Of a stretch of 64,000 nucleotides of DNA, positions 4,979-44,968 are shown one piece after another. Position numbers and translations under genes: made by a program. The stretch is taken from positions 1-64,000 of IMG/VR virus record IMGVR_UViG_3300022858_000345, one strand, 5' to 3'. Positions within the stretch are counted from its first letter, which is position 1; each line of letters begins with the position of its first letter. The notes beneath the pieces were generated by a model that made no database searches, was not told where the DNA came from, and was given only the letters and a program-made list of their open reading frames with translations. This DNA is from a virus.

Positions 4979-5402
4979 TATTGACGGTACTTTAGCAAAT
5001 GTAGACCATAGGCTAAAATATTTAACTGCTCCTAAAGTAAGAGGATTAAAAAAAGCATTTCACGATAGGCTTCATTTAGACACTCCTAATGAATGGTGTA
5101 AAAAGATTATAGAGCTATTTATAGCTGAGGGAACTACAGTAATATTATTAACTTGCCGTCCTATTATATATAAAAGTCAAACTTTTGATTGGCTTAGAAC
5201 TAATAATATTGAGTACGATATTCTGTATATGCGCCCCCTAGACGATAGTAGACCTGATTGTGTTATTAAAAAAGAACTTTATAATAATTGTATAAAGGAG
5301 TACTATGATGTCAGCTTTATTTTAGAGGATAGAAAAGCGGTAGTACAAATGTGGAGGAAATTAGGATTAGTGTGCTTACAATGTGAAAAAGGAGAATTTT
5401 AA
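4953..5402 (+). CDS. HAD-superfamily phosphatase, PseT 3'-phosphatase-like
   Basis: A 149-residue HAD phosphatase. The nucleophile motif is IVDIDGTLANVDHRL (DxDGT at about residues 9-13), motif II is ILLTCRP, a Lys sits in the VIKKELYNN segment, and the acidic ILEDRK segment is motif IV. The order and spacing match the 3'-phosphatase domain of T4 polynucleotide kinase-phosphatase, which removes 3' phosphates from nucleic acid ends. The kinase domain is absent, so it may work in nucleic acid repair or on nucleotides. Family clear, substrate inferred. Confidence 0.75.
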   Translation: MKRKAIIVDIDGTLANVDHRLKYLTAPKVRGLKKAFHDRLHLDTPNEWCKKIIELFIAEGTTVILLTCRPIIYKSQTFDWLRTNNIEYDILYMRPLDDSRPDCVIKKELYNNCIKEYYDVSFILEDRKAVVQMWRKLGLVCLQCEKGEF

Positions 5403-5421
5403 ATAATAAAATATAAAATTT

Positions 5422-5706
5422 ATGTCTACAGAAAATAGCTATTCTACAACAGATTTTGGATTTTCCTGTTATCTATTAACTAACAACATTGATATTGTTG
5501 AAGTTATTTTAAAAGATAGAGATAGAGGTATTTGTGAATTTATTTTTTTAATATCTAAAGAGGATGAATTTTTTCAAGATATGGAAAATAAATGGTATAA
5601 CTCAAATGACACAAAAGCCATTAAAGACATTTTAAGGGCTAGTAGAATTTTAAAAGGCAAATTAAAAATATGTTTGCTTCAAAATAACGCCCCAAGAAAA
5701 ATATAA
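5422..5706 (+). CDS. hypothetical protein, 94 aa
   Basis: An acidic/basic mixed cytoplasmic protein that begins 20 nt after the phosphatase stop, with an A/T-rich leader and no Shine-Dalgarno sequence. No motif recognised. It is the last gene before a strong promoter at 5711-5739. Confidence 0.5.
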   Translation: MSTENSYSTTDFGFSCYLLTNNIDIVEVILKDRDRGICEFIFLISKEDEFFQDMENKWYNSNDTKAIKDILRASRILKGKLKICLLQNNAPRKI

Positions 5707-5710
5707 ATAC

Positions 5711-5739
5711 TTGATAATTTTTAAAAAATGTTCTATAAT
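5711..5739 (+). promoter_or_regulatory. sigma70-type promoter for the HNH gene at 5765
   Basis: TTGATA (5711-5716), 17-bp spacer, perfect TATAAT (5734-5739). The promoter is framed by an inverted repeat CTTGATA/TATCAAG (5710-5716 and 5739-5745), which could be an operator. It sits about 25 bp before the homing endonuclease start. Confidence 0.7.
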
Positions 5740-5764
5740 ATCAAGAGTATTATAACTAAGAACT

Positions 5765-6277
5765 ATGCCCGCAAAGGGTTCTAAACTTTCAGAAGAGCAA
5801 AAGGAGCATTTAAGACTAATTAATACTGGTAAAAAACACTCTGAAAAAACTAAGAAAAAAATGAGTAGTGCTCATAAAGGAGTAAACATTTGGTCGAAAG
5901 GTAGAAAATGGACAGACGAGCAAAAGAAAAGTTTAAAAGGAAGAAAAGTTTGGAACACTGGTAAGAAGTGTCCTAGTTTAGCAGCTAAAATATCTGGGGA
6001 TAAATGTCATTTTTGGAAAGGAGGCATAACGCCTGGGAGACTAAAAATTAGAAATAGTGCAGAGTTTAAAGAATGGAGAAGAAAAGTATTTAAAAGAGAT
6101 AATTACACTTGCCAGGAGTGTACTGATAAACGAGGAGGAAATTTAGAAGCCCACCATATAAAACCATTTTCTAAATACCCAAAATTAAGATTTGAAGTAA
6201 CCAATGGACAAACTTTATGTAAAGAATGCCATAAAAAAACAGATAGTTATGGTGGTCTCTCTAATAAAAAAATATAA
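5765..6277 (+). CDS. NUMOD3-HNH homing endonuclease
   Basis: A 170-residue free-standing homing endonuclease. The N-terminal half holds two to three short NUMOD3 DNA-binding repeats (GKKHSEKTKKKMSSAHKG type). The C-terminal half is an HNH nuclease with C-x2-C (CQEC), EAHHIKPFSKYP as the HNH core and CKECHK. The enzyme would nick or cut a related genome at an unoccupied site so that this gene is copied in. Three close relatives lie in the window (15326, 19407, 24400). It has its own promoter. Confidence 0.9.
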   Translation: MPAKGSKLSEEQKEHLRLINTGKKHSEKTKKKMSSAHKGVNIWSKGRKWTDEQKKSLKGRKVWNTGKKCPSLAAKISGDKCHFWKGGITPGRLKIRNSAEFKEWRRKVFKRDNYTCQECTDKRGGNLEAHHIKPFSKYPKLRFEVTNGQTLCKECHKKTDSYGGLSNKKI

Positions 6278-16024: not shown

Positions 16025-16538
16025 AGATAGCATAGTTATTGCTTGCGACCCTAGTTTTTGTAGTACAGGAATTGCTATTTTTAAAGGGGAAGATTTAATT
16101 CATAAATGTACTATAAAAACTAGTACTAAAGATGAGTATAGGTTTGAGATTATAGGAATAGAGTTTAAAAAGCTTTTAGCTTATTTTCCAACTGTATTAG
16201 TAATAGAGTCACAGTATATTAGCCCAAAATTTTCTAATATAAATACATTAAGGGTTGTGGAGGTAAAAGGATTTATGGAAGGGCTTTTTATGTATCATTG
16301 CTTAGAATCAGGAATTAAACCTTTAATGGTAGAAGTAGCTCCAAAGGAAGCTAAGAAATTTATAGGAGTTATTGGTAATAATGACACTAAGAAGCAGGTA
16401 CAGGTTTTAGTAGAGCAGAGATTTCCTGAACTAAAAAAAGTTAATCAAGATGAAGCAGATGCAATTGCTATTGGATTAACAGGTATTGAAAAGCTTAATT
16501 CTCAGCAATTATTACAAAAATATAAAGATAAAATATGA
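16008..16538 (+). CDS. RuvC-like Holliday junction resolvase
   Basis: A 176-residue RNase H-fold resolvase: first Asp in IACDPSFCSTGIAIF, Glu in LVIESQYI, and the C-terminal DEADAIAIGL pair of Asp residues. It cuts four-way junctions made during phage recombination and replication. The start lies inside the HNH gene and the stop overlaps the helicase start by 4 nt. Confidence 0.85.
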   Translation: MSLLNKDSIVIACDPSFCSTGIAIFKGEDLIHKCTIKTSTKDEYRFEIIGIEFKKLLAYFPTVLVIESQYISPKFSNINTLRVVEVKGFMEGLFMYHCLESGIKPLMVEVAPKEAKKFIGVIGNNDTKKQVQVLVEQRFPELKKVNQDEADAIAIGLTGIEKLNSQQLLQKYKDKI

Positions 16539-19351
16539 CCAAATTTATACTAAGAGATTATCAGGAACAATGTTTAGATAAGATTATTTCTAACGCCAGA
16601 AAAGGAGCTTTGAAACAGGTAATAGTTCTTGCTACAGGATTAGGTAAGACTGTTATTTTTGGGCATTTACCAACAAAGGTAAAAGAGAAATCAGGAAAGA
16701 AAACTCTTATTTTAGCTCATAGGGAGGAATTGCTTGACCAAGCCGCAGATAAATTAAGGTTAATTGACTCTGATTTAAAAGTAGATATAGAACAAGGAAG
16801 TAGAAAAGTGGAGGGAGATGTAGACGTTGTTGTAGCTAGTGTTCCGACTTTGGGGAGAGAAGGTAGTGAGAGAATAAAGAAATTTAATCCAGAAGAATTT
16901 GGTTGTATAATTGTAGATGAGTGCTTTGTAGCAGGAACTAAGATAGATGGAAGAAATATAGAAGATATTAAAATAGGGGATTATGTAAATAGTTTTAATG
17001 AGAAAACAAGGAAGGTAGAAAAGAAAAAAGTATTAAGGTTGTTTAAGAATAAGGTGAAAGATAAACTAGTTAAAGTATATTTAGATAATGGTAATCATAT
17101 AGTATGCACACCCAATCATCCATTTTTCTGTGGGGGTAGGTATATTTCTGCTATAAATTTAAAAGAGCATTATGTATTGACAAACATCATGCAATTTGCT
17201 AATTATATAAGAGATGCAAAAAAGATATATAAAACCAAAAAAGTGTATAGTTTGCCAAAAGACTTATCAACCGAAGTCTTGGAATTGTTATATGGTCCCG
17301 ATTTGTTCAGAAGATTGCAAAAAGGTGAGGAGGAAAGAGAGAAGAAAAAAAGTAGTTTTACCTTGTTTAAATTGTGGGAAAAAGGTTGTAGCTTGTGGCA
17401 TAAATCAGTTGTCTTTAGCTCGAAGAGGGAGGGCATATTGTTCAGAGTCATGCAAGAAGACATACTTGAGCAAATTGAGTTCGACTACAATGAGCAAAAC
17501 AAACAAAAAATATGCCTCAGAAAGAATGCGAAAAAACAATCCTATGAAAAATCCAGAGTCAGTGGAGAAGATGAGGAAAAAAATGATTGGAAGAACATTT
17601 CTCAGTCGAGGAGGAAATGGGAAAATGACGAAACAACAAATAAAATTATGGCTCTCTTTAGGTTTACCGATAGAGGCATTAGAGTATCCAATAAAGACCT
17701 CAAAAGTAAAACATTTGTTTATTTCCTTACCAAATTACTATTCTCCAGACATAGGAATAAAAGATGTAAAATTAGCTATAGAGGTAGATGGGAAGACCCA
17801 CAAGTTAAAGAAATGGAGGTTTTTGGACAAGAGAAAGACAGAAGTTCTACAAGCGTTAGGGTGGTCAGTACTGAGGTTTTGGAACGAGGAAGTAGATTCC
17901 CGGCTAGAGGAGTGTGTGAAGACGGTTACGTCTACAATTTTGAAGTTGAGGGAAACAACAACTACTTTGCCAACGGAATCTTAGTACATAATTGCCACCA
18001 CTCAATAGCTAGTACTTATGTTAATATATTTAGATATTTTGGGGTATTAAAAGGGGAAGAACATGGAAGCCCTAAATTGCTTGTAGGGTGTACGGCCACT
18101 CCTAGTAGAGCCGATCATGAAGGATTAGATAAAATATTTGATAGAATTACTTTCACTTATACTTTAAGACAAGGAATTGAGTCTAGTTATTTAGCCCCTA
18201 TCAAAGCGTATACAGTTAGTACCTTAGCGGATTTAACTAAAGTTCATACTAGAATGGGGGATTTTGTAGAAAAAGAATTATCAGAAGCTATTAATACAGA
18301 GGAGAGAAATAAAATAGTGGTTAATAGTTACTTAGACATAGTTTCAGGCGGTAAAGCCCTAGTATTTGCTTCTGATGTACAGCATACAAAAGACTTAACG
18401 TCTTATTTTAGAGGAGTAGGGGTAAAAGCTAGTTGTGTGTTAGGGGAAACAGATAGAGGGGTTAGAAAAGGGATAATAGAAGATTTTGCTAGTGGAAAGA
18501 TAAAAGTATTAATTGGATGTGGTGTTTTTACAGAAGGATTTGATGAGCCTTCTATTGAAGCGGTTATGATGGCTAGACCTACTAAAAGTTCTGTTCTTTA
18601 TCAGCAAATGGTAGGTAGAGGAACTAGGCTATGTGAAGGAAAAGCAGAATTAAAATTAATAGACTTTGTAGACAATACAGGTAAAAATTCAATAATGTCT
18701 TTGCCTCAGTTGTTTGGAGTACCTAAAACATTAAAAGCAAAGAAGGGGAAAGATATTATGGAATGGGTTGGGCAAGCAGAACAAATAACTGATTTATATC
18801 CAGAGTATCCTTTAGATACCATAGACGATTGGAGCGAGGAAAATATCGAAAAAATAGTAAAAGAGATAGATATATTTGCCAAAGCTGAATTACCAGAAGA
18901 AGTAAAAACAAATTCTCAATTTACTTGGGAGAAGCAAGGAGAGGATTCTTATAAATTACAATTCCCAGCTTTAGAAGGAATAAAACAAGAAATTACTATT
19001 AAATCAAATATGTTAAATACATATAATATAGAGGTAGTCAGCTTAATAGAAGTTGCTCCTGATTACATAAATGGATATAAAAAATGGAAAAAAACAGATA
19101 CTATAGATGTAGGATCTTATGGTGATTTATCAGAAGCTTTAAAGCAAGGAGATACTTGGATAAAAGAAAATAAACCAGAGTTTGAAAGAATGTTTGACCA
19201 AAAAAGTCAATGGCGTTCAAATTCTGCGACTGAGAAGCAGATTAGTTTATTAAAAAAATTAGGAGTTCCTATACCTAAAATTGGATTTAATTCTGGCCAA
19301 GCGTCAGTTCTCATAGGGCGTGCTTTGTCTGAAAGTAAAAAAAGAAGTTGA
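16535..19351 (+). CDS. SF2 DEAD/DEAH-type helicase interrupted by an intein
   Basis: A 938-residue precursor. The extein is a SF2 helicase: Walker A LATGLGKT, DE|CHH Walker B split by the intein, motif III GCTATPS, motif V and motif VI QMVGRGTRL. The C-terminus (TEKQISLLKKLGVPIP) is a domain seen in phage and bacterial SF2 helicases. Removing residues 130-486 leaves 581 residues, a normal size. It probably acts in recombination or replication restart, like UvsW. The intein sits exactly between Glu and Cys of DECH, so activity requires splicing. The start overlaps the RuvC gene. Confidence 0.93.
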   Translation: MTKFILRDYQEQCLDKIISNARKGALKQVIVLATGLGKTVIFGHLPTKVKEKSGKKTLILAHREELLDQAADKLRLIDSDLKVDIEQGSRKVEGDVDVVVASVPTLGREGSERIKKFNPEEFGCIIVDECFVAGTKIDGRNIEDIKIGDYVNSFNEKTRKVEKKKVLRLFKNKVKDKLVKVYLDNGNHIVCTPNHPFFCGGRYISAINLKEHYVLTNIMQFANYIRDAKKIYKTKKVYSLPKDLSTEVLELLYGPDLFRRLQKGEEEREKKKSSFTLFKLWEKGCSLWHKSVVFSSKREGILFRVMQEDILEQIEFDYNEQNKQKICLRKNAKKQSYEKSRVSGEDEEKNDWKNISQSRRKWENDETTNKIMALFRFTDRGIRVSNKDLKSKTFVYFLTKLLFSRHRNKRCKISYRGRWEDPQVKEMEVFGQEKDRSSTSVRVVSTEVLERGSRFPARGVCEDGYVYNFEVEGNNNYFANGILVHNCHHSIASTYVNIFRYFGVLKGEEHGSPKLLVGCTATPSRADHEGLDKIFDRITFTYTLRQGIESSYLAPIKAYTVSTLADLTKVHTRMGDFVEKELSEAINTEERNKIVVNSYLDIVSGGKALVFASDVQHTKDLTSYFRGVGVKASCVLGETDRGVRKGIIEDFASGKIKVLIGCGVFTEGFDEPSIEAVMMARPTKSSVLYQQMVGRGTRLCEGKAELKLIDFVDNTGKNSIMSLPQLFGVPKTLKAKKGKDIMEWVGQAEQITDLYPEYPLDTIDDWSEENIEKIVKEIDIFAKAELPEEVKTNSQFTWEKQGEDSYKLQFPALEGIKQEITIKSNMLNTYNIEVVSLIEVAPDYINGYKKWKKTDTIDVGSYGDLSEALKQGDTWIKENKPEFERMFDQKSQWRSNSATEKQISLLKKLGVPIPKIGFNSGQASVLIGRALSESKKRS
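16922..17992 (+). other. intein in helicase, with nested out-of-frame endonuclease
   Basis: 357 codons, residues 130-486 of the helicase precursor. Block A starts with Cys1 (CFVAGTKI), block B is VCTPNHPFF, block F is GYVYNFEVEGNNNYFANG and block G is ILVHN followed by extein Cys+1. All splice residues (Cys1, the block B His, the penultimate His, the final Asn, Cys+1) are present. Between blocks B and F the in-frame protein matches no known endonuclease. The nuclease is instead read from the +1 frame (17214-17984), which runs through blocks F and G. Splicing should therefore be active while the homing function is encoded elsewhere in the same DNA. Confidence 0.92.
17214..17984 (+). CDS. Vsr/DUF559-like homing endonuclease nested in the helicase intein (+1 frame)
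   Basis: 256 codons in the +1 frame of the helicase gene, wholly inside its intein. The N-terminus carries zinc-finger-like Cys pairs (CIVC...CSEDC, CLNC...CSESC). The C-terminal Vsr-like core is LPNYYSPDIGIK, LAIEVDGKTH and LGWSVLRFWNEEV, the EDxHD/PD-(D/E)XK pattern of Vsr-like homing nucleases. Its last 25 or so codons share DNA with intein splice blocks F and G; the TAG stop is 8 nt before the intein end. A perfect TTGACA (17177-17182) lies upstream, but no good -10 box is at standard spacing. Confidence 0.8.
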   Translation: MQKRYIKPKKCIVCQKTYQPKSWNCYMVPICSEDCKKVRRKERRKKVVLPCLNCGKKVVACGINQLSLARRGRAYCSESCKKTYLSKLSSTTMSKTNKKYASERMRKNNPMKNPESVEKMRKKMIGRTFLSRGGNGKMTKQQIKLWLSLGLPIEALEYPIKTSKVKHLFISLPNYYSPDIGIKDVKLAIEVDGKTHKLKKWRFLDKRKTEVLQALGWSVLRFWNEEVDSRLEECVKTVTSTILKLRETTTTLPTES

Positions 19352-20914: not shown

Positions 20915-21253
20915 ATGAATCATTTACAAACAAATGAAGTAGGAAAGGAGTTCGGAGAGCTAGTAGATAATACTATTGCTCTACAAAAACAAATTAAAAA
21001 ATTAGAGAATGGAAAACTAGCGGAGTTGAAAAAGGAAATTGGAGGGCATAAAGAAGAATTAAGAAAAGAAATGGATAGAAGAGGTATAAATAAATTAGAT
21101 GGAGGTAAAGGTAATGTTTTATTAATAGATAGAAAAGGGTCTATAGTAGTAGATTTTGATGATATTATGAAAGATTTAGGAGTATCTGATTTGAAAAAAT
21201 ACCAGACTCAAAAAGAAGGATCACAATTCATTAAAGTAACAGCTAATGTCTAA
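20915..21253 (+). CDS. coiled-coil protein preceding the polymerase, 112 aa
   Basis: Residues about 5-60 form a Lys/Glu-rich coiled coil; the C-terminal half is a small alpha/beta segment (GGKGNVLLIDRKGSIVVDFDD). It overlaps the polymerase start by 8 nt, so translation is probably coupled. It may be a polymerase accessory factor, by context only. Confidence 0.55.
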   Translation: MNHLQTNEVGKEFGELVDNTIALQKQIKKLENGKLAELKKEIGGHKEELRKEMDRRGINKLDGGKGNVLLIDRKGSIVVDFDDIMKDLGVSDLKKYQTQKEGSQFIKVTANV

Positions 21254-24200
21254 GTTCATTGTAAAAAATAAGGAGGAGTATAAAAAGATTATAGATAAAA
21301 TTTTAGTTTCATCTTCTGAATATGTGGCTTTAGATACAGAGACAGAAGAATTTGATAAGGAGAAGACGCACGCATTTGATTTAGGGTTGTATGGAATAGG
21401 GTTATATGGGAAGGACTTTAAGATTTTTATTCCTGCTAAATTTGTAAAGAAAGACTTTCAGAAGGTTTTAGATAAATTTATTTTTATTTTTCATAACGCA
21501 AAATTTGATTTATTAATTTTAGAAAAGCACGGGTTTAATATAGATAAGTTAAAATATCACGATACTTTAATAATGAGTTGGTTACTAAATGAAAATAGAC
21601 GCTCACATAAATTAAAAGATTTAGCTCATTCGGTTTTAAGAGTTAAAGAAGAAAAGATTATTAAATATGGGGATGTTATTAAAAAGCCTATATTAGAGGA
21701 GTATGGTATGTTTCCTGAGGAATTTAGAATGGATTTGGCTAGGTGGATGATAAAGTTAGGGCTTTATTGTATAGATGATTGTACTTATACATATAAGTTA
21801 TTTTTTAAATTTAAACCTAAACTTGAAGAACAAAGTATATGGAGTATTTATGAAAGATTAGAATTAGAAACAGTAAAAGTTTTAATGTATATGGAATTGA
21901 GAGGAATAAAAGTAAATTGTAAGTATTTGGAAAAATTAGGAAAGAAAATTGAAACTGAGCTAATTCAGATTCAGGCAGATATTTGGAAAGGAGCGGGAAA
22001 AGAGTTTGATATAAATAGCCCAAAACAACTATCTCAGGTTTTATTTACTGAAAAAGGTTTTAAGTTAACAGATGATTATAGAACACCAACGGGGGCTTAT
22101 TCTACTAATGAAGCGGCTTTGAAGTATTTAAAAGAGGCGTACCCTAAAGATGAAGTGTTAGGGGGTATTTTAAAATATCGGGAATTATTTAAGCTACACA
22201 GTGCTTTTATTGTAGGGCTTTTAAGCAAACAAAGAGATGGAGTTATACATACTTCATTTAAACAACATGGAACAGTCACAGGTAGGCTTTCATGTGTAGC
22301 TAAAGATACTCCTATTTTAATATTAGAGGGGCATGTGCCTATTTCAAAAATAGACTTGCATAATAAGAACCACCAATATACAATAGGTAGCGGAGGGGAG
22401 TTAAGAAAGATAAAGAATTTAATATTTAATGGGTATGGAAAATTGTATGATGTTAAAACAGGAGATTCAAAGCTTAGATGTTCAGGAGACCACAGATTGT
22501 GGACAAGTTCTGGGTGGCGGAAAGCTGAAGATTTGCGAGAGGGAGATAAAGTATTCTTTAATAGAAGCTCCTTTAAAGTTCAAGGATTTGGGGTTGGGGA
22601 GAATAATATTAGACGAAAACAGTTTTGTGCTTTTAAGAATAAAGGAGAAGTTGACTCATCAAAAGATACGTCAGCTATCAAACAATGTTATAAAAAGAAG
22701 GTGGATACTTTTATCTCAAAAAGTTTATTTAAAAAAATACGGGAAAGATTTAAAAAAGATTCACAAGATAAATCTAAGTCTTGCGGCGTTGGGAAACAAA
22801 AATGGAAAGGGGAAAGGGAAAGTTTCTTTAGACGCAAAACAACTATTAGAGAAAGTTCAGATGGGAAAAAGTATAGGGAGGATAGCAAAAGAGATGCATT
22901 CTACAGAATTTATAGTGAAGTCAAATCTTATGTTGTTAGGTATGCCATTAAGGTATGCAAAAACCCCAAAGCAAGTAGGCACTTGGAGCAAAGAAGATGT
23001 CAGGTTGGTAGAGAAAATTTTTCCAGAGTTTTTAGAAATAGCAAAGAAATTCAAGAAGAACCCCGCGGAATTTTTAGACTTAGTATATGGAAAAGTGTTA
23101 GATACTTACAAAATTTTATGGTTATTAAAAAAATTGGGGGGTTTGCATGGGCATTATATGGAAACTGGGGCTATAGAGAAATCTCATATATGTTGGGGAA
23201 CGAACAGTTCAGCCAATACTTTATTAGCGAGGGAGTTAAGAATGCAGAGTATAAAGCACATGAGAGAATTCCCTATTGGAAAAAATTATTCTGTAGATTT
23301 TTATTTCCCGATTTCAAATTTAATGGTGGAATTAGATGGAAAACACCACGAAACAGATATAAAAACTTTAGAGAGGGACAAAGAGAAAGAGAAAATTATA
23401 AAAAAGATGGGGATTCGGTTAAAGAGATTTATGTCTACGGAGGGGAAAAACCCAAAATTGCTGTTAAAGAAAATCAAGAAGTTACTATAGATAGCATTGA
23501 ATATATAGGTAGAGGGGAATTATGGGACTTAACAGTAGATGGAGATTCTTCATATATTACAGAAGGGCTAATTAGTCATAATTGTAGTGCTCCTAACTTA
23601 CAACAGTTACCTAGAAGGGATGATGAGTATGATATTAGAAAGGCTTTTATACCTAGAGAAGGGTATACATTTGTTATTTCAGACTTATCTCAAATAGAAT
23701 TAAGGATAGCAGCTTCTATCAGTCAAGACCCTACTATGCTTAAGATATTTAATGAAGGTGGAGATATACATGGGGAGACCGCTAAACTGCTCGATTGTGA
23801 AAGAGTAATAGCTAAACAAATTAATTTTGGAATTTTATACGGCACCGCTGCTTTTGGAATGTCAAAAGGTTTAGAAGCCAAAGGAGTGAAGCTAGATGTT
23901 AAAGAAGCAGAGAAGTTTATTAATAGATATTTCTCTAAGTTTAAAAAATTAGAGATACTTATAGAGCAAGCTAAAAATACTTTGAGAAAAAAATACGCAA
24001 TTACTACTGTTTTTAATAGAAAAAGAAGATTCCCAAAATATGCAGAAGCCAGAAAAAATAGAGATTGGAAGTTAGTAGCTCACTGTGAAAGGCAAGCTAT
24101 AAATTCTATTATTCAGGGAAGTGCTGCTGATATTATTAAAGTTCAAATGAGAAATTTAAGTAGGGAGTTACCTAAATATGGAGCGTATCTTTTAGTTCAG

Positions 24201-24347
24201 GTGCACGATGAAGTAATTTGTGAAGTTCCTAAGGAAAAAGCTGAGGAAGTTTTAAAGATTGTAGTAGATATTATGGAAAATTCTTATCATCTTAAAGGGG
24301 TTCCAATAGTGGCTAATGGATTTATTAGTGAGGTATGGAAGAAGTAG
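21246..24347 (+). CDS. polA-like: family A DNA polymerase interrupted by an intein
   Basis: A 1033-residue precursor. The N-terminal 3'-5' exonuclease has D30-x-E32 (LDTETEE), a second Asp in FHNAKFDLL and DDCTYTY. The polymerase part begins before TVTGRLS, the intein follows, then come motif A ISDLSQIELRIAA, motif B ERVIAKQINFGILYG and motif C VQVHDEV. Removing residues 350-779 leaves 603 residues, usual for phage family A enzymes. The segment before motif B (TAKLLDC) is shorter than in typical Pol I. This is the replicative polymerase of the phage. The intein splits the conserved GRLS^CxxPNLQ motif. Confidence 0.94.
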   Translation: MSKFIVKNKEEYKKIIDKILVSSSEYVALDTETEEFDKEKTHAFDLGLYGIGLYGKDFKIFIPAKFVKKDFQKVLDKFIFIFHNAKFDLLILEKHGFNIDKLKYHDTLIMSWLLNENRRSHKLKDLAHSVLRVKEEKIIKYGDVIKKPILEEYGMFPEEFRMDLARWMIKLGLYCIDDCTYTYKLFFKFKPKLEEQSIWSIYERLELETVKVLMYMELRGIKVNCKYLEKLGKKIETELIQIQADIWKGAGKEFDINSPKQLSQVLFTEKGFKLTDDYRTPTGAYSTNEAALKYLKEAYPKDEVLGGILKYRELFKLHSAFIVGLLSKQRDGVIHTSFKQHGTVTGRLSCVAKDTPILILEGHVPISKIDLHNKNHQYTIGSGGELRKIKNLIFNGYGKLYDVKTGDSKLRCSGDHRLWTSSGWRKAEDLREGDKVFFNRSSFKVQGFGVGENNIRRKQFCAFKNKGEVDSSKDTSAIKQCYKKKVDTFISKSLFKKIRERFKKDSQDKSKSCGVGKQKWKGERESFFRRKTTIRESSDGKKYREDSKRDAFYRIYSEVKSYVVRYAIKVCKNPKASRHLEQRRCQVGRENFSRVFRNSKEIQEEPRGIFRLSIWKSVRYLQNFMVIKKIGGFAWALYGNWGYREISYMLGNEQFSQYFISEGVKNAEYKAHERIPYWKKLFCRFLFPDFKFNGGIRWKTPRNRYKNFREGQRERENYKKDGDSVKEIYVYGGEKPKIAVKENQEVTIDSIEYIGRGELWDLTVDGDSSYITEGLISHNCSAPNLQQLPRRDDEYDIRKAFIPREGYTFVISDLSQIELRIAASISQDPTMLKIFNEGGDIHGETAKLLDCERVIAKQINFGILYGTAAFGMSKGLEAKGVKLDVKEAEKFINRYFSKFKKLEILIEQAKNTLRKKYAITTVFNRKRRFPKYAEARKNRDWKLVAHCERQAINSIIQGSAADIIKVQMRNLSRELPKYGAYLLVQVHDEVICEVPKEKAEEVLKIVVDIMENSYHLKGVPIVANGFISEVWKK
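22293..23582 (+). other. intein in DNA polymerase, with nested out-of-frame endonuclease
   Basis: 430 codons (residues 350-779). Block A starts with Cys1 (CVAKDTPILI), block B is CSGDHRLWTSSGW, block F is GELWDLTVDGDSSYITEG and block G is LISHN followed by extein Cys+1. Between them the in-frame protein (Lys/Arg-rich, low complexity) matches no nuclease. The +1 frame encodes a Vsr-like endonuclease at 22429-23490. Splice residues are intact, so splicing should work. Confidence 0.92.
22429..23490 (+). CDS. Vsr/DUF559-like homing endonuclease nested in the polymerase intein (+1 frame)
   Basis: Up to 353 codons in the +1 frame, inside the intein. The centre holds a helix-turn-helix-like region (KSIGRIAKEMHSTEFIVKSN). 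The C-terminal catalytic part is FPIGKNYSVDFYFP, LMVELDGKHHE and MGIRLKRF, the Vsr-like ExDGxxH pattern shared with the other two nested genes. The true start may be later than ATG 22429, because the first 45 or so codons share DNA with splice block B and look less like a folded domain. Expression route unknown. Confidence 0.75.
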   Translation: MGMENCMMLKQEIQSLDVQETTDCGQVLGGGKLKICEREIKYSLIEAPLKFKDLGLGRIILDENSFVLLRIKEKLTHQKIRQLSNNVIKRRWILLSQKVYLKKYGKDLKKIHKINLSLAALGNKNGKGKGKVSLDAKQLLEKVQMGKSIGRIAKEMHSTEFIVKSNLMLLGMPLRYAKTPKQVGTWSKEDVRLVEKIFPEFLEIAKKFKKNPAEFLDLVYGKVLDTYKILWLLKKLGGLHGHYMETGAIEKSHICWGTNSSANTLLARELRMQSIKHMREFPIGKNYSVDFYFPISNLMVELDGKHHETDIKTLERDKEKEKIIKKMGIRLKRFMSTEGKNPKLLLKKIKKLL

Positions 24348-24399: not shown

Positions 24400-25002
24400 A
24401 TGTCTAGAAAGTTATCAGAGCAACATAAGAAAAATATATCTAAAGGATTAAAAAAAGCTTATTCAAAGGATAGGGTTGGTTATTGGAAAGGTAAAAGTAG
24501 AAAAGGAATTATTACAGAAGAAGGTAAGAAAAGTATTAGTGATGCTAGAAAAGGTAAAAAACTTTCAAAGGAGCACAAAAAGAAATTAAGTGATAGCCAT
24601 AAAGGTAACGCTGGCTACTGGACAGGTAAGAAAGGGCCTAAAAGAACATCAGATACTAGAAGAAAGATGAGCGAGGCTCATAAGAAACACCCAGAAAGAC
24701 ATTGGGCATGGAAAGGCGGAGTTACAGAGGGTAATAATAAAATTAGACATTCTTTAGATAACAGGTTATGGAGAGAAGCAGTATTTAAAAGGGATGATTA
24801 TACTTGTCAGAAGTGTTGTAAGAGAGGAGAAAAAATAGTATCTCACCACATATTAAATTTTGCAGAGCACCCTGAACTAAGATTTGAGATAAGCAACGGA
24901 GTAACTCTATGTAAGGAATGCCATATTTTATTTCATGCTGTTTATAGAAAGAAAGGGAATTGTGAAAAGCAATTAAAAGAATTCAGATACACGATGAAGT
25001 AA
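24400..25002 (+). CDS. NUMOD3-HNH homing endonuclease inserted behind the polymerase
   Basis: 200 residues: about four NUMOD3 repeats (residues 1-100, SKEHKKKLSDSHKGNAGYWTG), then the HNH domain with CQKCCKRG, VSHHILNFA and CKECHILFH. Its 3' end (codons for EFRYTMK) overlaps, in another frame, a relic copy of the polymerase C-terminus. That shows where the element entered the ancestral polymerase gene. Own promoter. Confidence 0.9.
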   Translation: MSRKLSEQHKKNISKGLKKAYSKDRVGYWKGKSRKGIITEEGKKSISDARKGKKLSKEHKKKLSDSHKGNAGYWTGKKGPKRTSDTRRKMSEAHKKHPERHWAWKGGVTEGNNKIRHSLDNRLWREAVFKRDDYTCQKCCKRGEKIVSHHILNFAEHPELRFEISNGVTLCKECHILFHAVYRKKGNCEKQLKEFRYTMK

Positions 25003-41106: not shown

Positions 41107-42471
41107 ATGAAAAAACCAAATGTTATCCAAAAAGCTTACAAAAGCTTAACTGAGCTATTCTCTTTTACTAAAGATGGTCAAAAGAAAGCTATTGCTACGT
41201 TAGGAGGAACAGGTGTTTCTTACTTTGGAAGATTACAAGACCCTTCAAAAACAGGGCTAAAAAAACCAACGAAAGTAACTTTTAATCAGTTACGGGAAGC
41301 AGCTAGGTATGATGCTATTATCAGAATTTGTGTAAATGTTATTAAGAAATCAGTTAGTCAAGCAGAGTGGGCTATAATCCCAAAACAGGAGAGAAAAGAA
41401 GTTAATAAGGCTCAAGTAGATCAAGCTACTAATTTATTTGAAACGATTAATAATCGAGGAGAGAATTTAAGACAAGTATTAGATATGGTATTAGAAGATT
41501 TATTAGTATTAGATGCTGGAGTAATTGAGAAAGTTTATAATGCTAAAGGAGAGATAGTAGAATTAAATGCTGTAGACGGAGCTACTATCAGACCTAAAAT
41601 GGATAAGTATGGAGATTTAGACCCGACTAGTGCTTATGTGCAAGTGATAGGAGACAAAGTAGTAGCTGAATTTGCATTAAATGAATTAATTTATATGGTG
41701 CAAAGTCCGCAAAGCGATATACGATTGTATGGGTATGGGATGTCGCCTATTGAGAGTATTTTATTACAAGTACAGGCAGCTTTAAATGCTGATCTGTATA
41801 ATGCTGAAATGTTTTCTAAAGATAATATCCCTCCAGGTATGTTAGATTTAGGGGATATGTCCCAATCAGAAGCACAACAATTTATATCTGTATGGGATGC
41901 CACAGTAGTCGGTAGTACTCAGAAGTTAAAATTCCTTTGGGGTGGAGGAGAAAAAAATAATAAAAAGTATATTCCTTTTAACCAAAATAATAAAGATATG
42001 CAGTTTGTGGAATATACAGATTGGCTATCAAGAATTAAATTAGCTACTTATGGTCTTACAGGAATGGACGCAAATATTACTCAAGATGTTAATAGGGCTA
42101 CAGCAGGTGTTCAAGAATCTGTTACAAGTTCTAGAGGTGTAGGAAGTATTTTTAAGTTAGTTGAGGAGTATATTAATAGAGAGATATTTATGCCAATGGG
42201 ATGGGACGATATACAGTTTAAATTTCAAAAGGCTTTAAATATTTCCGAAAAGAAACAGCAAGCAGAAATAGATAAAATTTATGTAGAGGCAGGAATTCTA
42301 GACCCAGCAGAAGTAGCTATCAGAGAAGGATTTGAAATACCTGAACAAGATGAAGAAGAGATAGATTACTTAGCACCAGCTCCCGAAGAAAAGATTGAAG
42401 GTAAAGAAGATGTGTTAGTGCCAGAAGAAAAGAAGTCTCACTCACATAATTTTAAACCTTTATATGAATAA
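41107..42471 (+). CDS. phage portal protein
   Basis: 454 residues of the portal fold: LREAARYDAIIRICVNVIKK, a VLDAGVIEKVYNAKGEIVEL beta segment and a C-terminal long helix region with ITQDVNRATAGVQESV. It forms the ring through which DNA enters the capsid. The end overlaps the head morphogenesis gene by 8 nt. Order terminase-portal-morphogenesis is standard. Confidence 0.88.
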   Translation: MKKPNVIQKAYKSLTELFSFTKDGQKKAIATLGGTGVSYFGRLQDPSKTGLKKPTKVTFNQLREAARYDAIIRICVNVIKKSVSQAEWAIIPKQERKEVNKAQVDQATNLFETINNRGENLRQVLDMVLEDLLVLDAGVIEKVYNAKGEIVELNAVDGATIRPKMDKYGDLDPTSAYVQVIGDKVVAEFALNELIYMVQSPQSDIRLYGYGMSPIESILLQVQAALNADLYNAEMFSKDNIPPGMLDLGDMSQSEAQQFISVWDATVVGSTQKLKFLWGGGEKNNKKYIPFNQNNKDMQFVEYTDWLSRIKLATYGLTGMDANITQDVNRATAGVQESVTSSRGVGSIFKLVEEYINREIFMPMGWDDIQFKFQKALNISEKKQQAEIDKIYVEAGILDPAEVAIREGFEIPEQDEEEIDYLAPAPEEKIEGKEDVLVPEEKKSHSHNFKPLYE

Positions 42472-44968
42472 ACTTGTACAAAAACAAGTAGAAGAAGATG
42501 CAGAGTTTTTTGATACTTTAGAAAGTACTCCTGAGTTTAAAAGAATGAAGAAGTTAATTGAGAAAGCTTTATTAGACCAATGGAATGATGTTCTTTTTTC
42601 AGGAATAATAAATACTATGTTTAATAAGTATAAGGATTTTATTGTAAAGGGAGGCAAGAAGATACAGATTAAAAAGACAGTTGCTAAAGCTACTAATGAA
42701 GAAGAATTAGATGAAGCCATATTGGATAGCTTACAGCAGGATAAATTTTTAGTAGGGGAAAAGGGTATGAAGATGAAACTTTATTTAGCTTTTCTATTAA
42801 CTTTAGTAAAAACTAATATGAAATCTATTGGTAGTTATTATGATTTTAGAAAGAATATGAATACTTTCTTAAAAACAATGGCAAATAAAGGAGGGCAAGA
42901 CATAGTATCTGATATAAAAACGCCTAAGCCTATTAAATTTAGATTATCTAATGTTGCTCTAAAAGCAAAAATAACAAAAAGAGTAAATGTATTAATAAAA
43001 GATTTAGACAAAGTTACTAGAAAAATTTTAGTGAGACATTTAGCTTTAGGTATTAAGAATGGAGAAACAAAAACACAAATAATTAAAAGGCTACAGAAAA
43101 CAGGAAAGCAATTTTCAAAGACTAGAGCAAAAAGGATAGTAGATACAGAAACAGAAGCGGCAGCAGAATTTATGAGATATGAGACCGCTAGATTAAATGG
43201 AGTTACTACGAGAACTTGGGAAACAGCGGGAGATGATAGAGTTTGTTTTCCAAAAGATACTCAAGTAGTTACTGATAGAGGGGAGAGGGGGATACAAGAA
43301 CTTAAAATAGGAGATAAAGTATTGACTCGAAACGGTTATAGAAAAGTTACTGCAACTAATAAAAGAAAATATAGTAAGAGTATGACTAGTATAACTACAA
43401 CTAAGGGGAAGCTAGTGTGTACTAGCGATCATCCGATTTGGGAAAAAGGTTATGGTTGGTTATGTGCGGGAGATTTCAATGTTGGAGATTTCGTTAAGTC
43501 TAAGGAGAATAAATATTTCAGGGTGGATAAGGTGAGTAATTTCAGTATCAAGTATGCGTACAACTTTCCATCCATTTTTTATAAGAAAATTATTTTTCCT
43601 TTTATCTCTTTGTGCATTAGAATGCCAATATGCTCCATCTGCTTCGAGAGCAATTTTATATTTAGGCAAAAGAAAGTCAACACTATATCTTCCGACTTGT
43701 CCTTCTTGGATAAAGGGAATACCAAGTTTGTACAGACTAAGCCTGAAGAGCTTTTCAAGAGAAGTTTCTCCAGTAAATTTACGGTAGCACGAGAAAGAGC
43801 AAAAACGCCTAATATCTTTTGCATAAGGCATTACTCTAAATTGTTTAGCACATTGCTCACAAGTTTTATAAGTAGGAGGACGATAACATTTTTCAGAGCA
43901 ATATGTTTGTATTCCTATTTTATCTCTAAAAACTTTTTTACATCTTTTACAAATAATGTTTCCCATATTTATCCAACGACAGGCGAGGCTACAAACTGTA
44001 TACCTATGAGAAATACTTTTATTAATTTGAAAAGATTTAGTACATACAGGGCATATTTTAGTAACCTTTTTAGGAGTTCTAGCTTTTTTATAACATTTAG
44101 AAGAGCAGTACTTTTCATTTCTGGCTACTCGACTTTTGTTAAGATAAAAGGATTTATTACACCCCTTACAGAGGAGAATCTTACCTTGTTTAGTGCTTTT
44201 GTGATAACATTTAGGAGAACAATAGGCATTTTTTCCTCTTATTTTCTTTTCTTTTTTAATGGCTTTACCACATTGATAACAGATATATTGGAACATGCCA
44301 CACAATTAAGGATTGATTTACTTATAGTATATAGTAGATTGTTAGGCAAATCAATATTTGTTTATGACATACAGGTAGAAGAATACCCAGAATTTTATGC
44401 AAATGGGATACTTGTACATAATTGTCCTATATGTGCTCCCTTGGATGGAGTTACTAAAAAAATGAGTCGTAATTTTAATTCAGGAGATTTTTCTGGTAAG
44501 TATCCACCAGCTCATGCAGTATGTAGATGCTCAGTTACTTATGATATAGAAGGTAATGAGGCGAGTAATTTTGTATTAAAAAGAGGGGTATTTGAAACTA
44601 TTGATGATTTGTTTACAAAAGCGAAACAATTAATTTTTTATACTCCTATAAAGACTACTGCAATAAGTGTTGTTAATCCTAATGCGGTATGGGCAGGAGG
44701 CAAAACTTTAATAGGTCCCGATAGAGGTATTAGTAAGTTTATTGAAGATATAAAAATATTTAGAGATTATAAGAGAAATTTAAAAAATATATTAATAATG
44801 AAAGAAGGGAAATTGGTAGTGGATATATTAAGAGAACAATCAATTTTAACTTTTGGAGTGGATAAGATTTTAGTAGATGCAAGAGATAAATTAACAGATG
44901 AAGGATTTGTTCAATTAATCAGGAGTTTTGGAGTTACTAAGAAGATACCAAGTAAAAATATAACTTAA
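42464..44968 (+). CDS. SPP1 gp7/Mu F-like head morphogenesis protein with an intein
   Basis: An 834-residue precursor. The extein has the Mu F/gp7 signature: RAKRIVDTETEAAAEF, TWETAGDDRV^CPICAPLDG and YPPAHAVCRCSVTY. It is a minor head protein bound to the portal and can eject with DNA. Removing residues 261-653 leaves 441 residues. The intein splits the conserved DRVCPIC motif. An antisense gene (43460-44296) lies inside the intein. Confidence 0.9.
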   Translation: MNKLVQKQVEEDAEFFDTLESTPEFKRMKKLIEKALLDQWNDVLFSGIINTMFNKYKDFIVKGGKKIQIKKTVAKATNEEELDEAILDSLQQDKFLVGEKGMKMKLYLAFLLTLVKTNMKSIGSYYDFRKNMNTFLKTMANKGGQDIVSDIKTPKPIKFRLSNVALKAKITKRVNVLIKDLDKVTRKILVRHLALGIKNGETKTQIIKRLQKTGKQFSKTRAKRIVDTETEAAAEFMRYETARLNGVTTRTWETAGDDRVCFPKDTQVVTDRGERGIQELKIGDKVLTRNGYRKVTATNKRKYSKSMTSITTTKGKLVCTSDHPIWEKGYGWLCAGDFNVGDFVKSKENKYFRVDKVSNFSIKYAYNFPSIFYKKIIFPFISLCIRMPICSICFESNFIFRQKKVNTISSDLSFLDKGNTKFVQTKPEELFKRSFSSKFTVARERAKTPNIFCIRHYSKLFSTLLTSFISRRTITFFRAICLYSYFISKNFFTSFTNNVSHIYPTTGEATNCIPMRNTFINLKRFSTYRAYFSNLFRSSSFFITFRRAVLFISGYSTFVKIKGFITPLTEENLTLFSAFVITFRRTIGIFSSYFLFFFNGFTTLITDILEHATQLRIDLLIVYSRLLGKSIFVYDIQVEEYPEFYANGILVHNCPICAPLDGVTKKMSRNFNSGDFSGKYPPAHAVCRCSVTYDIEGNEASNFVLKRGVFETIDDLFTKAKQLIFYTPIKTTAISVVNPNAVWAGGKTLIGPDRGISKFIEDIKIFRDYKRNLKNILIMKEGKLVVDILREQSILTFGVDKILVDARDKLTDEGFVQLIRSFGVTKKIPSKNIT
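43460..44296 (-). CDS. Vsr/DUF559-like homing endonuclease, antisense inside an intein
   Basis: 278 codons from ATG (44294-44296 on the - strand; the frame extends to a TTG at 44305). The N-terminal half has at least five repeated zinc-finger-like C-x2-C...C-x3-C units (CYQCGK...CSPKCY, CKGCNK...CSSKCY, CPVCTK...CSLAC, CKRCKK...CSEKCY, CEQCAK...CSFSCY). The C-terminal Vsr-like nuclease has RYSVDFLLPKYKIALEADG, YWH and NGWKVVRILDTEI. Codons are in exact register with the sense intein, so none may be TTA, CTA or TCA; the leucines I checked are CTC, CTT or CTG. It is the only gene on the - strand. Confidence 0.85.
   Translation of the reverse strand: MFQYICYQCGKAIKKEKKIRGKNAYCSPKCYHKSTKQGKILLCKGCNKSFYLNKSRVARNEKYCSSKCYKKARTPKKVTKICPVCTKSFQINKSISHRYTVCSLACRWINMGNIICKRCKKVFRDKIGIQTYCSEKCYRPPTYKTCEQCAKQFRVMPYAKDIRRFCSFSCYRKFTGETSLEKLFRLSLYKLGIPFIQEGQVGRYSVDFLLPKYKIALEADGAYWHSNAQRDKRKNNFLIKNGWKVVRILDTEITHLIHPEIFILLRLNEISNIEISRT
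44326..44354 (-). promoter_or_regulatory. antisense sigma70-type promoter for the nested endonuclease
   Basis: On the - strand: TTGATT (44354-44349), 17-bp spacer, TATACT (44331-44326). Transcription would start near 44318, about 20 nt before the ATG at 44296. The promoter lies in DNA coding for intein block F on the other strand. Confidence 0.6.

Follow-up and report, generated by a model that had tools for sequence, protein, structure and literature searches.

A probable homing endonuclease gene on the opposite strand, and in the codon register, of an intein in a phage head morphogenesis gene

Textbook mobile inteins carry their homing nuclease, a LAGLIDADG or HNH enzyme, as an in-frame domain. 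The intein in the head morphogenesis gene studied here has no match to a LAGLIDADG or HNH Pfam profile (proteins P0001 and P0003 searched), and its opposite strand holds a long open frame. The question is whether this frame is a gene in its own right, what it encodes and how it relates to the intein. The features found in the window, meaning the whole 64 kb stretch of viral DNA that was analysed, are listed in Table 1. Very probably the locus is a mobile intein with its homing endonuclease encoded apart, by an opposite-strand gene in codon register, and not as a domain of the intein.

The head gene (42464-44968, plus strand) is open throughout and encodes 834 aa. Family profiles assign its product to the Phage_Mu_F / SPP1 gp7 (MuF/gp7) head morphogenesis proteins, and these matches stop and restart precisely at the borders of an insert at residues 261-653 (AGDDRV/CFPKDT...GILVHN/CPICAP, with slashes at the borders). 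The insert matches the intein profiles TIGR01443, TIGR01445 and PF14890, and has the motifs of the HINT superfamily: Cys1, a TxxH-type block B, block F, the terminal His-Asn and Cys+1. A complete intein had been predicted here, and its extent holds to the base. The motifs suggest that it splices itself out of the head protein. The AlphaFold model of the sense intein, built from three sequences, has a pLDDT of 31, too low to back a fold in which the splice halves close around the reverse-translated middle. Unlike a canonical bifunctional intein, this one has no endonuclease domain in its own frame; the nuclease is on the opposite strand.

Table 1. Positions of the inteins, their host gene segments and the nested nuclease genes in the window
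Feature	Position	Strand	Evidence or remark
N-extein, MuF/gp7-type head morphogenesis protein	42464..43243	+	PF04233, TIGR01641 and PHROG head-family matches stop at residue 261
Intein, 393 residues, Cys1 to His392-Asn393, then Cys+1	43244..44422	+	TIGR01445, TIGR01443, PF14890
Intein block B (GKLVCTSDHPIW)	43406..43441	+	Motif; His63 also in the L007 and L012 inteins
Intein block F (FVYDIQVEEYPEFY)	44357..44398	+	Motif
Intein block G (ANGILVHN)	44399..44422	+	Motif
C-extein of head protein and stop codon	44423..44968	+	Head-family profiles restart at residues 652-655
Putative antisense homing endonuclease gene, same codon register	43460..44305	-	TTG start at 44305 gives 281 aa; ATG at 44296 gives 278 aa
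Five CxxC...C[ST]xxC finger units, putative DNA-binding	43787..44281	-	Motif scan; PHROG 1271 and 559 finger matches
EDxHD/Vsr-like nuclease core (TSLE, SVDF, EADGAYWH)	43535..43777	-	DUF559 1e-9; I-Bth0305I 3r3p 6e-15 (profile), top Foldseek match
Promoter-like site TTGATT-17-TATACT, 5' of antisense gene, weak	44326..44354	-	Not above chance
Second intein, in SF2 helicase gene (16535-19351), motif II (VDE/C..HN/CHH)	16922..17992	+	PF14890 1.3e-14
Nuclease gene in helicase intein, same strand, +1 frame, Cys fingers and DUF559	17214..17984	+	DUF559 4.5e-12
Third intein, in DNA polymerase I gene (21246-24347), GRLS/C..HN/CSAPNLQQLP	22293..23582	+	PF14890 8e-11
Nuclease gene in polymerase intein, same strand, +1 frame	22429..23490	+	DUF559 5.8e-9

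The antisense gene ends just past block B and starts before block F, and its codons are in exact register with the sense codons across the overlap. The original prediction of a 278-codon gene with five Cys-rich finger units is correct on both points: the ATG start gives 278 aa, and the motif scan finds exactly five units. It was also expected that a same-register overlap would bar TTA, CTA and TCA, and none of the three occurs on either strand within it. The genome is AT-rich (GC about 32% in the window), and in the rest of the window TTA makes up 60% and CTA 11% of the Leu codons and TCA 23% of the Ser codons. Under this codon usage, and given the antisense protein, the absence has a probability of about 4e-13. 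When the antisense codons are redrawn from genome usage, 17.8 sense-frame stops are expected, and the minimum in 5000 draws is 9. The runner-up among antisense open stretches inside any other gene of the window has 191 codons. The nuclease gene is purged of TTA, CTA and TCA because the host frame must stay open, and the earlier idea that antisense codons are shaped to that end gains support here and extends to the other loci described below. It is possible that the nuclease gene invaded a mini-intein in reverse, and that its antisense placement separates nuclease expression from late gene expression. Three other viral contigs carry the gene with 0 differences, and a DNA-level search for it among phages gave no match.

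The antisense product appears to be a nuclease of known fold. A profile built from it and its relatives matches the catalytic domain of I-Bth0305I (PDB 3r3p) first and Vsr second (3e-5), which agrees with the proposed Vsr/DUF559 affiliation (Table 1). Its AlphaFold model has a pLDDT of 78, and the best Foldseek match of the model is again 3r3p, with a TM-score of 0.72-0.78 on the target. In the alignment of relatives (A1), E184, D210, E221, D223 and H228 are invariant, and across the antisense nucleases the catalytic residues are invariant or nearly so. A Vsr-type fold in which E, D, (x)H and D are conserved marks the EDxHD, or Vsr-like, homing endonucleases, and the antisense product has it. 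The curated Vsr cut-offs are missed (TIGR00632, 33 bits vs 97.85; PF03852, 23.1 vs 27). Because of the 3r3p match, the fold and the invariant catalytic residues, and with the Vsr cut-offs not reached, the product is classed from sequence and model as a predicted homing nuclease of the EDxHD type and not as a Vsr repair enzyme. I-Bth0305I shares the nuclease fold and catalytic residues, but is encoded in a phage group I intron, whereas the gene described here lies antisense in a translated intein and belongs to a family with Cys4 fingers or HTH modules.

Homologues of the antisense protein also occur outside such overlaps, and they provide a natural control for codon use. In Acinetobacter phage IME285 the homologue is a free-standing gene that adjoins an intein-less MuF gene. 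It contains 8 TTA, 1 CTA and 3 TCA codons, and its opposite strand is closed. IME285 was considered as a counterexample to the open overlap and dismissed, since its homologue is free-standing next to an intein-less gene. The same nuclease family is found in frame in the DUF559/EDxHD inteins of HK97-gp10-like genes (L013-L016, L018, L022, L025, L027, L028), one of which has a DUF559 match (3e-8) within its HINT domain (L016). Unlike the antisense gene of the window, these nucleases lie in the intein's own frame with TTA and CTA unrestricted, and TTA is in free use in those from AT-rich contigs. As IME285 and the in-frame DUF559 inteins use TTA freely, the codon avoidance tracks nesting and not the protein family.

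The antisense layout recurs. In-register antisense nuclease genes were examined in 33 distinct inteins, and both strands are open in all of them. The nuclease motif YNxDxAVGxVAVE is mirrored in the sense frame as FHGD...(D/E)(V/I)(D/E)(V/I), a pattern expected to mark inteins of this layout. The set consists of the window locus, the viral contig L007, 18 intein-bearing phage loci and 13 environmental loci (L101-L113). The phage loci come from six Guernseyvirinae, fEg-Eco06, Aaphi23, two Vividuovirus, three Vibrio phages, Pseudomonas, Klebsiella and Edwardsiella phages, virus Rctr197k and Gordonia phage Malisha. Relatives in which the antisense frame is broken while the intein stays intact would speak against a gene on that strand, and there are none among the 33. 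The Rctr197k record (L081 1165-2517) names a head morphogenesis protein, and the flanks of its intein resemble dCMP deaminase (PCVAC/...HN/CAKRLI).

Within this set the window family and a sister family can be told apart. L007 has the same antisense layout as the window in a high-GC portal-MuF fusion; its antisense nuclease (4998-5969) shows no obvious ATG, GTG or TTG start ahead of the first Cys finger. Contig L012 has a related nuclease in the same kind of intein, but its gene runs in the +1 frame of the same strand and has a Shine-Dalgarno sequence of its own (AAAGGAGACAGTCTTG). Malisha gp5 leads to the sister family, which has HTH modules and a distant EDxHD core and matches the window family in profile comparison (97%, E 9e-11). 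The Malisha-type antisense protein has matches in 128 phage records; beyond the loci examined in detail these rest on tblastn rows, and some (Acinetobacter) are free-standing genes. The MuF domain is interrupted at two sites, site a in the window, L007, L012 and fEg-Eco06, and site b (HxN/CRC) in most others. A tree of the nuclease core, which lost many rows in motif extraction, does not separate or count the origins of the antisense layout. Inserts of the Fishburnevirus phages (Techage) and of L008 were also considered as inteins; no intein motifs are seen in them, and they are left out of the count.

The sister family, the better populated of the two, differs from the window in where its gene begins and ends. 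At 17 phage loci the His codon of block F (G-H-V-Y-N-L-E/Q), read as its complement, supplies the start codon of the nuclease. Nearly all of them have GGAGGT, GAGGT or a similar sequence 5' of this start (TAGGT in PhiSTP2), as the complement of the block F Asn-Leu, with Leu mostly CTC. The same ribosome-binding signal precedes most of the environmental nuclease genes. The start and ribosome-binding site of sister-family genes thus lie inside block F, and the tail of the gene spans blocks B and A. The proposed fit of the nuclease between blocks B and F therefore stands for the window and fails for the sister family. The window antisense gene has no Shine-Dalgarno sequence upstream. This counts less because its genome hardly uses them, with such motifs at 2/49 genes vs 21% of random positions, and their near-absence suggests a host such as a member of the Bacteroidota. 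The promoter scan found 5 sites vs 5.9 expected, which is no excess over chance.

Substitution tests were run on sister-family pairs from Guernseyvirinae (genes of equal length), Gordonia and Vibrio phages, the window's own relatives being identical over the gene. Between SaI_NFG and PhiSTP2, substitutions in the insert at sense positions 1/2/3 number 61/13/33, vs 25/21/127 in the exteins (Fisher p 1e-14). The Gordonia phages Angelicage and Vivi2 give 46/12/28 vs 7/3/73 (p 1e-12), and the Vibrio pair 17/4/5 vs 30/12/108. In the Salmonella/E. coli, Gordonia and Vibrio phages alike, the inserts vary chiefly at sense position 1, the third position of the antisense codon. The dN/dS comparison of both strands, proposed as a check and carried out on these relatives, gives 0.12-0.2 for the antisense frame of the insert and about 0.9-1.4 for the sense frame, with the reverse pattern in the exteins. 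Since the changes fall on its third codon positions and its dN/dS is 0.12-0.2 vs a sense value of about 1, the antisense protein is the one under purifying selection, in three independent phage groups.

These results bear on whether the sense strand holds an ordinary, perhaps decayed, in-frame endonuclease domain of which the antisense frame is merely the shadow. In-register antisense shadows can indeed stay open, above all at high GC, and in the deep set the sense middle has an identity of 0.385, higher than the 0.268 expected from pure codon shadowing at 49% nuclease identity. However, the window has a low GC content, every nuclease, finger and HTH profile match falls on the antisense products and none on the sense middle, and the sense middle is near-neutral while the antisense frame is constrained. 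A shadow origin is therefore hardly credible. High GC alone is a plausible cause of the open frames in L007, Malisha and the Gordonia phages taken singly; as a general cause it is ruled out by the AT-rich loci and the substitution pattern. Since the identity of the sense middle exceeds the shadow expectation, weak sense constraint or shared ancestry may also contribute.

The sister-family inteins carry the expected mark of mobility, presence and absence at one site with the intein less diverged than the exteins. The gene of PST-H1 has 498 matching phage records of Guernseyvirinae type. At least 80% of it is covered in 70 of the 498, while in many others both exteins are matched and the insert is not; the Shelanagig gene has exactly the length of the exteins. 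Between Snoke and PST-H1, the flanking exteins show 13-18 differences per 60 bases and the intein about 1 per 60. Comparison with UPWr_S5 finds the left flank partly homogenised too, as co-conversion would predict. With intein-bearing alleles next to empty ones, and with exteins that have diverged around nearly identical inteins, these loci bear an apparent signature of homing in the Guernseyvirinae.

Two other roles for the antisense gene have to be weighed. It could be a homing gene of the ordinary free-standing sort whose insertion into a head gene leaves the sense frame open only because the protein tolerates it, with no splicing. Such a case appears to exist, since gp65 of Mycobacterium phage ShiLan has an out-of-frame nuclease gene within an intact host ORF that contains no intein. 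But in the window Cys1, all four splicing blocks (A, B, F, G) and the His-Asn/Cys+1 junction are intact, and intein borders delimit the recurring inserts, which makes a tolerated insertion very unlikely. Alternatively, the gene may act mainly as a regulator of the late head gene, through antisense RNA or as a DNA-binding repressor, and not as a homing enzyme. The HTH or finger modules and the antisense placement would permit this, but it is a slim prospect in view of the invariant or nearly invariant catalytic residues and the mobility signature of the inteins.

The preferred reading, a mobile intein with a separate opposite-strand nuclease gene, implies the following mechanism. The sense transcript would yield the head-protein precursor, from which the intein is predicted to splice itself, taking along a meaningless reverse translation of the nuclease gene. 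The antisense gene would be expressed independently, in the sister family probably from its own Shine-Dalgarno sequence and the ATG in block F; these signals are present in the sequence, from which expression is inferred. Its product is, according to profile and fold, an endonuclease of the EDxHD/Vsr fold that carries Cys-finger or HTH modules. This enzyme presumably cuts intein-less alleles at the insertion site, and repair from an intein-bearing copy would spread the intein, consistent with the presence/absence alleles and the near-identical inteins in diverged exteins. The need for an open host frame strips the nuclease gene of TTA, CTA and TCA. One stretch of DNA would thereby encode a self-splicing protein part on one strand and the mobility enzyme on the other, and separate encoding would allow the nuclease to be expressed independently of the head gene. 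Homing can be tested now, because alleles with and without the intein are both found among cultured phages of Salmonella and E. coli.

The arrangement resembles several known systems. These elements share with bifunctional inteins the splicing blocks (A, B, F, G), an endonuclease in the B-F region and a scattered occurrence at fixed positions in essential genes. They differ in that their nuclease comes from a second gene, which has its own start and lies on the other strand or in the +1 frame. Dassa et al. reportedly described, in 2009, split inteins whose halves flank a Vsr-like endonuclease gene. There too a Vsr-like nuclease gene adjoins intein halves, but the host gene is fractured, whereas in the window it is contiguous and the nuclease overlaps it. 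Antisense homing genes also occur within self-splicing nuclear group I introns (I-DsqI and Dir.S956-2; PMC9548176). Such introns can accommodate a closed sense frame opposite the gene, whereas in an intein every codon must stay open. No published report of an antisense or out-of-frame nuclease gene in an intein was found in open-access full text, an absence that is not proof. Many antisense-bearing inteins lie in cultured phages, including those of Salmonella, E. coli and Gordonia, with the head gene alone annotated. In the accessible part of a Salmonella phage paper (PMC8425127) the intein is annotated and the antisense gene is not. An antisense nuclease explains why some phage inteins appeared to lack one, and for the study of overlapping-gene evolution the free-standing sister gene makes this a clean natural case with a built-in control.

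A motif scan of the entire window finds three inteins, and the other two also contain nuclease genes out of the host frame (Table 1). With random codon choice, 28.6 host-frame stops are expected from the nuclease gene in the helicase intein and 36 from that in the polymerase intein; 0 are seen in either. Immediately 3' of the polymerase gene lies a free-standing NUMOD3/HNH homing endonuclease gene (24400-25002).

Nesting of this kind extends to an insertion without an intein. The 'ShiLan domain' of actinophage methylases has been described as mobile and without matches (PMC9957025). In ShiLan gp65 (L114 8594-9100) a same-strand HNH gene is nested in the +2 frame, with an HNH_3 match (7e-8) and its own Shine-Dalgarno sequence. 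Judged from these matches, the 'ShiLan domain' of DNA methylases is in all appearance the out-of-frame reading of that gene. Alternate-frame nesting is probably general for homing endonucleases: throughout the tailed phages their genes would lie antisense or in the +1/+2 frame within inteins or other in-frame insertions, and splice motifs would also encode their start signals. This would include all three inteins of this virus and the 'ShiLan domain'. Such genes are likely overlooked because annotation keeps one frame per locus, and standard annotation would thus miss a class of mobile elements in common phages.

In Techage gp59 (L070 1860-2648) and other Fishburnevirus phages, a Cys-finger/DUF559 nuclease match lies between methylase pieces on the strand opposite the annotated gene. 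The annotated strand of the Techage gp59 locus is probably wrong.
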